Shown: piece by piece, positions 40,179 to 40,941 of the stretch | How positions within the stretch are numbered: position 1 is the first letter of the stretch | How the letters are laid out: the number at the start of each line of letters is the position of its first letter | Made by a program: the position numbers and the translations under genes | Notes under the pieces: generated by a model | The model's database searches: none | Seen by the model: the letters and a program-made list of their open reading frames with translations, nothing else | Told to the model about the DNA's origin: nothing | DNA from: a virus | Reading direction: 5' to 3' (one strand) | Virus record (IMG/VR): IMGVR_UViG_3300050132_000138 | Location: 1-40,941 of that record | Length of the DNA stretch: 40,941 nt

Positions 40179-40481
40179 ATGGCTAACCACCCGAACCGAG
40201 CGAAACAGGAAGAACGCGCCGTGCTGGTCACGACATCGCATCGCGGCGTGTTTTTCGGTTACGCGACCGAGACCGACGGCGCCACGATCGCGCTACGCGC
40301 CGCGCGTAACTGCATCTACTGGCCCTCGGAAAATAAGGGATTCATGGGCCTGGCGAACATGGGGCCGCTGAAAGGCGCGCGCGTCGGCCCGGCGGCCGAC
40401 ATCGAGCTGCGCGATATCACCTCCGTCGCCCTGGTCACCGATGCCGCCGTGGCCGCGTGGGAATCCGCGCCATGGAAGTAA
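40179..40481 (+). CDS. DUF6948-like protein upstream of the Gly-X repeat gene
   Basis: The product is 100 residues from the ATG at 40179, which has a GGAG site; an earlier start at 40140 has none. The core (ERAVLVTTSHRGVFFGYATE, LRAARNCIYWPSENKGFMGL, ELRDITSVALVTDAAVAAWE) is a small beta-rich module that I recall as the DUF6948 family of phage proteins. The activity is unknown. Its stop overlaps the start of the Gly-X repeat gene by ten bases, so the two are translated together. Confidence 0.68.
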   Translation: MANHPNRAKQEERAVLVTTSHRGVFFGYATETDGATIALRAARNCIYWPSENKGFMGLANMGPLKGARVGPAADIELRDITSVALVTDAAVAAWESAPWK

Positions 40482-40941
40482 GCGAAGCAAGACTCGTGCG
40501 GGGCGAAGTCCCGCACTCATTTCTTAAAGGCTACGGCTACGGCTCCGGCCCCGGCCCCGGCTCCGGCTACGGCTACGGCTCCGGCCCCGGCTCCGGCTAC
40601 GGCTACGGCTCCGGCCCCGGCTCCGGCTCCGGCTCCGGCTCCGGCTACGGCTCCGGCGCCGGCTCCGGCTACGGCTACGGCTCCGGCTACGGCTACGGCT
40701 CCGGCTCCGGCTCCGGCTCCGGCTCCGGCTCCGGCTACGGCTCCGGCTCCGGCTACGGCTACGGCTCCGGCTCCGGCTCCGGCTACGGCTACGGCTACGG
40801 CTACGGCTCCGGCTCCGGCTACGGCCCCGGCCCCGGCTACGGCTACGGCTACGGCCCCGGCTCCGGCTCCGGCTACGGCTACGGCTACGGCCCCGGCGAC
40901 GGCTCCGGCTACGGCTCCGGCCCCGGCTCCGGCGACGGCTC
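40472..40941 (+). CDS. Gly-X dipeptide-repeat protein, 5' part (continues at the left end of the window)
   Basis: The ATG at 40472 lies ten bases inside the end of the DUF6948-like gene, and the frame reads MEVSEARLVRGEVPHSFLK before an unbroken run of GGC-NNC dipeptides from 40529. Past the window end it continues at about position 175 and stops at 206-208, giving 167 aa. The 74 units are 33 Gly-Ser, 26 Gly-Tyr, 10 Gly-Pro, 4 Gly-Asp and one Gly-Ala. Pro sits at both ends and Asp only at the C-terminus. All codons end in C. The Gly/Ser/Tyr content resembles disordered, phase-separating or adhesive repeat proteins. No function is known to me. Confidence 0.65.
   Translation, partial: MEVSEARLVRGEVPHSFLKGYGYGSGPGPGSGYGYGSGPGSGYGYGSGPGSGSGSGSGYGSGAGSGYGYGSGYGYGSGSGSGSGSGSGYGSGSGYGYGSGSGSGYGYGYGYGSGSGYGPGPGYGYGYGPGSGSGYGYGYGPGDGSGYGSGPGSGDG
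40529..40941 (+). repeat. Hexanucleotide GGCNNC repeat tract (right part)
   Basis: From 40529 to the window end every hexamer is GGCTAC, GGCTCC, GGCCCC, GGCGAC or, once, GGCGCC (40655 region). The tract continues at 1-205 through the terminal redundancy 40768-40941/1-174. It lacks CRISPR features such as constant repeats with unique spacers. It coincides exactly with the coding frame of the Gly-X gene. Confidence 0.9.

Follow-up and report, generated by a model that had tools for sequence, protein, structure and literature searches.

A Gly-X repeat gene split by contig ends follows a DUF6948 gene in a near-obligate two-gene phage module

The window (the whole stretch of DNA analysed here, all 40,941 nt of a single IMG/VR virus record) carries at its two ends the pieces of one open reading frame, which belongs to a near-obligate pair of phage genes. 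The first gene of this module encodes a DUF6948 protein, and the second, the split one, a protein consisting of a leader followed by strictly alternating Gly-X dipeptides. A Gly-X tract was found downstream of 182 of the 185 DUF6948 or DUF6948-like loci having at least 150 nt of downstream sequence. Conversely, among the listed matches of a search by tract DNA alone, a DUF6948-like gene precedes 60 of 66 tracts. The module is widespread and apparently undescribed.

Results and Discussion

A repeat gene divided between the ends of the window

The last 174 nt of the window, which fall within the Gly-X-coding repeat, are identical to its first 174 nt but for one mismatch (C at 40815, A at 48); the next-best register of end overlap spans 78 nt with 8 mismatches. 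Joining the ends and removing the 174-nt overlap yields an open reading frame of 167 amino acids, made of 19 leader residues, 74 Gly-X units and a TAG stop, while keeping the overlap yields 225 amino acids instead. An earlier note made from the letters of the window had claimed such a split frame, opening at an ATG in a 10-base overlap with the upstream gene, and all its elements, down to the composition of the tract, were reproduced on joining. The ATG lies at 40472 and the upstream gene stops at a TAA at 40479-40481. Glycine occupies 74 of the 74 alternate positions of the tract and is encoded by GGC in every case, and the X residues are 33 Ser, 26 Tyr, 10 Pro, 4 Asp and 1 Ala. The GC content of the tract is 80%, against 63% for the phage. 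The features of the region are collected in Table 1.

Table 1. Position of the module and of its neighbours in the window
Feature	Position	Strand	Basis or remark
DUF6948 gene opening the module; product of 100 aa, predicted Sm/LSm-like fold	40179..40481	+	PF22253
Gly-X protein leader, 19 aa, MEVSEARLVRGEVPHSFLK	40472..40528	+	10-nt overlap with the end of the DUF6948 gene
Gly-X tract, 5' portion, 68 units and the start of another	40529..40941	+	all Gly codons GGC
3' part of the Gly-X tract with its TAG stop (206-208)	1..208	+	bases 1-174 repeat 40768-40941
Remnant of the C-terminal domain of relatives	209..236	+	junction compared with L041, L042, L043, L049, L094
Downstream gene, 86 aa, conserved module neighbour in close relatives	227..487	+	gene order in 11 contigs
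Integrase, marks the lysogeny region of a temperate phage beside the module	723..1877	+	PF00589, E=2.8e-18 (465-1874 frame)

Leaders of the '..LVRGEVP..' type, resembling that of the window, occur in many related loci. Eleven contigs (L040-L043, L046, L048, L049, L054, L064, L094 and L118) hold the DUF6948 gene, the Gly-X gene and a homologue of 227-487 in unbroken order, and L094 also carries homologues of the following gene of the window and of its integrase in the same order. Because these 11 relatives hold the three genes on uninterrupted DNA, the two ends of the window are adjacent: the contig-end join is real. The homologue of 227-487, whose product has no match in Pfam or PHROG, lies upstream of DUF6948, not downstream, in L045, L071, L090, L093 and L122, which is neutral on the join. 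Since the end overlap falls in repeat DNA, the length of the tract in the window contig could be off.

Such interruptions are frequent downstream of DUF6948. In the A and C viral sets (96 loci, one of which was skipped, its best match being on the other strand), the contig breaks off in the first 450 nt after DUF6948 in 25 of 95 cases, whereas none of the 95 begins within 450 nt upstream. The tract thus breaks assemblies, which is why the window is cut there and why the second gene is easily lost. The remark in the earlier note that nobody annotating either end alone would find the gene is accurate for this contig; in deposited phages, however, the gene is present as 'hypothetical' or 'lamprin', or was missed.

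The leader and the tract also share one frame in related loci read individually, including those where an automatic scan had picked another frame. The other frames of the tract (RL/AT) are open as well and were rejected, since in the loci read the Gly-X frame contains both the leader and the KEYW with which the C-terminal domain described below begins. The exceptions are L110, whose C-terminal domain is out of frame, and L002, where the leader and an initial 39 units are read in one frame up to a stop, after which repeat DNA runs on in other frames. Of the loci read individually, L002 alone shows, in part, what the earlier note named as evidence against it, a related tract out of frame with its leader or lacking a stop. 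The repeat DNA past the 39 in-frame units of L002 (6414-7240) looks as if it had been frameshifted or misassembled.

Coupling of the two genes across loci

Loci were collected by protein searches blind to downstream DNA: 25 viral loci, 13 genome contigs, 71 further viral loci, 79 viral loci obtained with the divergent profile A5, 5 named phages and 2 genomes. One of these 195 loci has no profile match and 16 have less than 150 nt downstream, leaving 178 to be counted. A tract follows in 176 of them (23/23, 11/12, 64/65, 71/71, 5/5 and 2/2 for the respective sets), including 98 of the 100 loci in the sets found with the DUF6948 family of the window itself. It begins at a median of 38 nt past the DUF6948 stop, and between 0 and 80 nt past it in 155 of the 176. 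The two misses, L036 and L060, are accounted for by contigs ending 188 and 537 nt past the DUF6948 stop; in L060 an HNH gene follows DUF6948, and the last residues of the contig begin a tract. Seven further phage records add six tracts and one miss, L422 (MW202478), in which no Gly-X tract is present in the 1,859 nt downstream of a gene that resembles DUF6948 weakly (E=2e-5, over 51% of the query). An HNH gene separates DUF6948 from the tract in L060, L100 and L106 (the family match having been made for L100), and L111 has an HNH endonuclease gene right after the tract (1461-1958).

The reverse direction relied on a 24-nt tract pattern alone, which matched at least 120 stretches. Eighty listed loci were counted, 75 of which have a Gly-X frame, 66 of these with at least 600 nt upstream. 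No DUF6948 gene was detected upstream of the tract in L199, L211, L221, L256, L262 and L265, each with at least 600 nt of upstream sequence. The iterated profile used for this comparison matched 284 times across 277 loci, or roughly once in each. Two DUF6948 genes were observed on one phage contig in the case of L091 and L104, which belong to the same contig, and in L101.

These counts are of loci that share ancestry and are not phylogenetically independent, some contigs being near-identical, and the IMG/VR scans cover the best 80 matches of 330 (the 71 further viral loci), of 154 (C-terminal-domain search) and of 295 (A5). Twelve phages of the phage collection (L111, L112, L391-L393 and L417-L423) were read, 11 of which have a tract, together with 8 more Rheinheimera records; among the matches outside this reading are 106 records of Rheinheimera phages, two of Rhodobacter capsulatus phages and five other phages of Pectobacterium. 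Pairing by chance or artefact is rejected on the counts in both directions. The earlier note had suggested a two-gene module and had asked whether DUF6948-like genes are repeatedly followed by such repeat genes: they are, and the upstream gene of the window is a clear DUF6948 member (PF22253, E=3.4e-22, 78.8 bits for a cut-off of 27).

The pairing spans IMG/VR contigs with flanks from 24% to over 65% GC, a lytic phage (Barba18A) as well as temperate phages, and contigs found in the deposited genomes of candidate-phylum bacteria, of a cyanobacterium and of a Methanoperedens archaeon. Within the open-licence part of PMC, our searches found neither a description of the DUF6948/Gly-X pairing nor a paper naming DUF6948, and the main text of PMC6715854, searched by term, mentions neither repeat nor glycine.

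DUF6948 proteins and their predicted fold

Pfam gives DUF6948 no function. The DUF6948 gene of the window most likely starts at the ATG at 40179, which has an AGGAG upstream. Its product, searched against named phages, found no match. The Pfam model recognises three of the five named phages and places 7 of 10 divergent partners above its cut-off, L245 falling below it and L197 and L214 remaining unmatched; hhalign relates the A5 group to DUF6948 with a probability of 82% (E=1e-5). DUF6948 occurs in 1 of 398 and 3 of 297 cellular genomes when the centre genome is included, in 0 of 397 and 2 of 296 without it, and in 0 of 14 control genomes; given this scarcity, it looks like a phage family.

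A structure model of DUF6948 (pLDDT 92.5) has five strands, the number found in the bent Sm barrel. Foldseek retrieved with it a chain of Lsm1-7 (4c92_A, E=2.0e-3, probability 1.00) as top match, and the top 50 are overwhelmingly Sm/LSm proteins. VIA aligned it with 3by7_A (Z 7.2 over 72 residues at 3.2 Å) and with 1i8f_C (Z 7.0 over 62 residues at 2.4 Å), Z scores of about 7 being in the range that the tool itself calls common. DUF6948 is consequently predicted to have an Sm/LSm fold, at the level of the fold. It resembles Sm/LSm proteins (Lsm1-7, archaeal SmAP, 3by7) in this predicted model; by sequence, profile searches of the PDB with profiles A1, A4 and A5 did not find the solved Sm chains.

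Composition and evolution of the tract

Our analysis covered 346 distinct tracts, from all loci including the pattern-selected ones, which favour GGC. Their dominant Gly codon is GGC in 314, GGG in 26, GGT in 4 and GGA in 2; a single Gly codon serves at least 90% of the units in 321 of the 346, and this codon varies by lineage. The X residue is Tyr (40.9%), Asp (26.1%), Ser (19.0%) or Asn (9.1%), each other residue accounting for less than 1%. In AT-rich phages, tracts of pure GGA or GGT occur with NNT codons, along with others of pure GGC or nearly pure GGG. Whether built on GGA, GGT, GGG or GGC and on NNT or NNC, the tracts encode the same Gly-[Tyr/Asp/Ser/Asn] alternation. As the Gly codon is lineage-specific while the alternation and the choice of X persist, selection is shown to act on the tract as a protein; this argument is drawn mainly from the A5 loci because the pattern-selected loci favour GGC. 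Over 275 tracts, the X codons TAC (3111), GAC (2069) and TCC (1626) have one-step neighbours that are rare (such as CAC 41, TTC 37, CCC 19), which also speaks for selection on the protein. The X codons are unlike a random NNC spread, a point against a diversity-generating retroelement. The tract of the window is atypical in its 10 Pro and just 4 Asp.

Near-identical genomes carry tracts of different length. Nine of 115 Rheinheimera phage records present four tract alleles, differing by one GY unit (in two places) and/or one Y/N swap, within flanks showing 0-4 mismatches of 943 and 0 of 400. Likewise, L004 and L005 have 24 and 25 units, and L015 and L016 27 and 36, with identical 300-nt upstream flanks; L090 and other contigs ending inside the tract were excluded as length comparisons. 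Comparison of these alleles shows that the tract gains and loses units of 6 nt, steps that cannot break the frame. Heterozygosity is 0.029 within a tract and 0.200 when tracts are pooled. Elsewhere in the window, a perfect GCA run of 13.7 copies (34308-34348) lies in a minus-strand DNA methyltransferase gene, and the encoded protein contains 14 consecutive alanines.

Several known repeat proteins invite comparison. Silk fibroin alternates Gly with X residues that are mainly Ala and Ser; the window tract likewise has Gly at every second residue, but its X residues, like the Tyr and Asp of the family, are unlike that choice. FUS-type low-complexity domains are characterised by [G/S]Y[G/S] motifs, and the window tract is similarly dense in GYG, with 26 such motifs in 148 residues; the Gly-X family differs from these domains by its strict dipeptide alternation, by an Asp content of about one quarter of X and by its phage origin. 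Collagen-like Gly-X-Y repeats have Gly at every third position, whereas the period of the window tract is two residues, and the GGxGxDxUx nonapeptides of RTX proteins have no counterpart in a tract without GG. We know of no described system with the make-up of the module, the literature searched being the open-licence papers of PMC.

Architecture of the Gly-X proteins

Sequence comparison shows the Gly-X protein to be composed of a short variable leader and (Gly-X)n, followed in many lineages by a swappable extra domain. The Gly-X gene of the 11 contigs of identical gene order runs into a C-terminal domain (L118 was found through it), and this A2 domain is present in 62 of the 112 sequences scanned. 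In the window, bases 209-221 correspond to the first bases of the domain (KEYW) and 222-236 to its last codons (GECL and stop). Since only the first 13 nt and the last codons are retained, the inside of the domain has been lost. Its structure model (pLDDT 96.2) has weak, fold-level similarity to ADP-ribosyltransferase-like structures (BC2332, Z 6.0; Arr, Z 5.9) and weak fold matches to viral DUF7666, RIIB and repeat proteins (E=9.6e-4 for a DUF7666 protein of BFVD), from which the domain may, weakly, be called ADP-ribosyltransferase-like. This likeness concerns the domain of the relatives only, deleted in the window. Three copies of the domain have no Pfam match, a search of phages and plasmids with the L007 copy found no match, and Foldseek against the PDB gave a best E of 0.82.

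Another C-terminal domain follows the tract in L209, L224, L283, L284 and L303, and by eye other C-terminal domains also occur in L418 and L419. The domain of the first five contains a conserved ..FAHG.T....WHH..TGSC..G.. motif, and its L209 copy has no Pfam match. A different N-terminal domain is found in L018 and others. Barba gp017 has no extra domain, and nothing or few residues follow the tract in Barba, L024-L026 and the window after its deletion. Tandem small paralogous Gly-X genes lie behind one DUF6948 gene in L022 (5615-7228 on the plus strand and 11231-10744 on the minus strand) and in L023 (6288-7719), most having a leader that resembles MQEQLIRGEMSR and a tail close to E(K/Q)DIVCKSN. 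The similar leaders and tails of these paralogues led us to consider a possible RiPP-like precursor, with a leader and a core. Successive Gly-X tracts were also seen in L192, L262 and L265, where a DUF6948-like gene was not detected within reach; those of L262 and L265 have common leaders (MTTIN/MTTIK) and tails.

Genomic context and carriers

The module of the window sits in a segment that runs from the repressor (37559-38242) across the window ends to the integrase, distant from the terminase, head and tail genes. Among the neighbours of 219 distinct loci, clusters (scanned through one representative each) include ERF (27), YqaJ (14), a DEAD-type helicase below the cut-off of Pfam (11), RecT (7) and AAA (7), found at a minority of loci, and the neighbours in Barba9A include DNA polymerase and exodeoxyribonuclease. 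Given the place of the window module between repressor and integrase and the recombination genes near others, an adhesive or virion role of the Gly-X protein looks less likely. In the Pectobacterium phages Abuela and Sabo, the next gene upstream is a tail fibre gene on the opposite strand, which speaks against a strict early-region rule.

Carriers of the module include the Rheinheimera Barba phages (gp018/gp017 in Barba9A), Abuela and Sabo, Dickeya phage Setonix, Vibrio phage IKEMa6-1, Chlorobiaceae phage CV-1-33, MW202613 (whose second gene is the one annotated 'lamprin') and MW202898. Iodobacter phage phiPLPE has phiPLPE_84 and an unannotated Gly-X frame (L111, 1189-1461) between phiPLPE_84 and phiPLPE_83. 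Early and late expression clusters are reported for Barba18A (PMC9305737).

Possible functions of the module

The best explanation as a whole, which we put forward tentatively and as short of probable, is a two-gene module pairing an LSm-like protein with a low-complexity Gly-X scaffold early in infection. We infer that the two genes are co-expressed and that their products are physical partners in a multivalent scaffold or condensate. The DUF6948 and Gly-X proteins would be made together early in infection, beside recombination and replication functions. The tract would be a multivalent, flexible low-complexity scaffold, in which Tyr residues in GYG context would be the 'stickers' and Gly, Ser, Asp and Asn the spacers, and which would allow the LSm-like protein, along with whatever C-terminal domain the tract carries, to gather into a condensate or gel-like nucleoprotein body. 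Gain and loss of repeats may then tune the valency of the scaffold. An LSm fold and a GYG-rich partner recall eukaryotic RNP granules. A bolder proposal, which we consider doubtful, is that phages of bacteria, and perhaps of archaea, carry an 'RNP granule kit' made of an LSm-fold protein and a Gly-Tyr-rich low-complexity partner, its valency tuned by hexanucleotide gain and loss that leaves the frame intact, whose early condensates would organise phage recombination and replication or seize host RNA.

Other explanations must be weighed against the scaffold. The strict alternation kept across lineages, and members such as Barba gp017 without any folded domain, would suit a silk-like structural polymer, with the X side chains on one face of the strand, forming beta-sheet fibres or a gel as a mechanical barrier or scaffold. 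Such a polymer is nonetheless unlikely, as X is Tyr, Asp, Ser or Asn rather than Ala or Ser, an Asp share of 26% of X should hinder the close packing of sheets, and the window gene lies in a lysogeny or early region. About as improbable is a decoy for counter-defence or host takeover, in which a hypervariable, often acidic tract would block a nuclease or a defence protein of the host, while DUF6948 would carry it or bind the target. The fast turnover of units, the recombination genes near some loci and the swappable C-terminal domains, one of them ADP-ribosyltransferase-like and close to DUF7666 and phage RIIB proteins, would fit a decoy, but the charge of the tract is not constant, the window having 4 Asp in 74 X.

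The frequency of the A2 domain and the other domains found at its place (L209, L224, L283, L284, L303, L418, L419) could also mean that the tract is merely a flexible linker of variable length, tethering a C-terminal effector domain to the leader; we give this less credit still, because Barba, L024-L026 and the window keep the tract despite having little or nothing after it. Finally, the repeat might act as DNA or RNA, either as a recombination hot spot or as an RNA target of the LSm-like protein, the peptide being a by-product. Although units are homogenised within a tract, GC-rich tracts occur in AT-rich phages and an RNA-binding type of fold is encoded next door, this is very improbable given that tracts with different Gly codons encode one and the same alternation.

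Significance

The family of the module has been nameless beyond DUF6948, the second gene being deposited as a hypothetical or lamprin gene or overlooked. Natural alleles one dipeptide unit apart exist among near-identical isolates. With the module, cultured phages can serve to test whether an infection-stage body may be formed in bacteria by an LSm-fold protein and its low-complexity partner.
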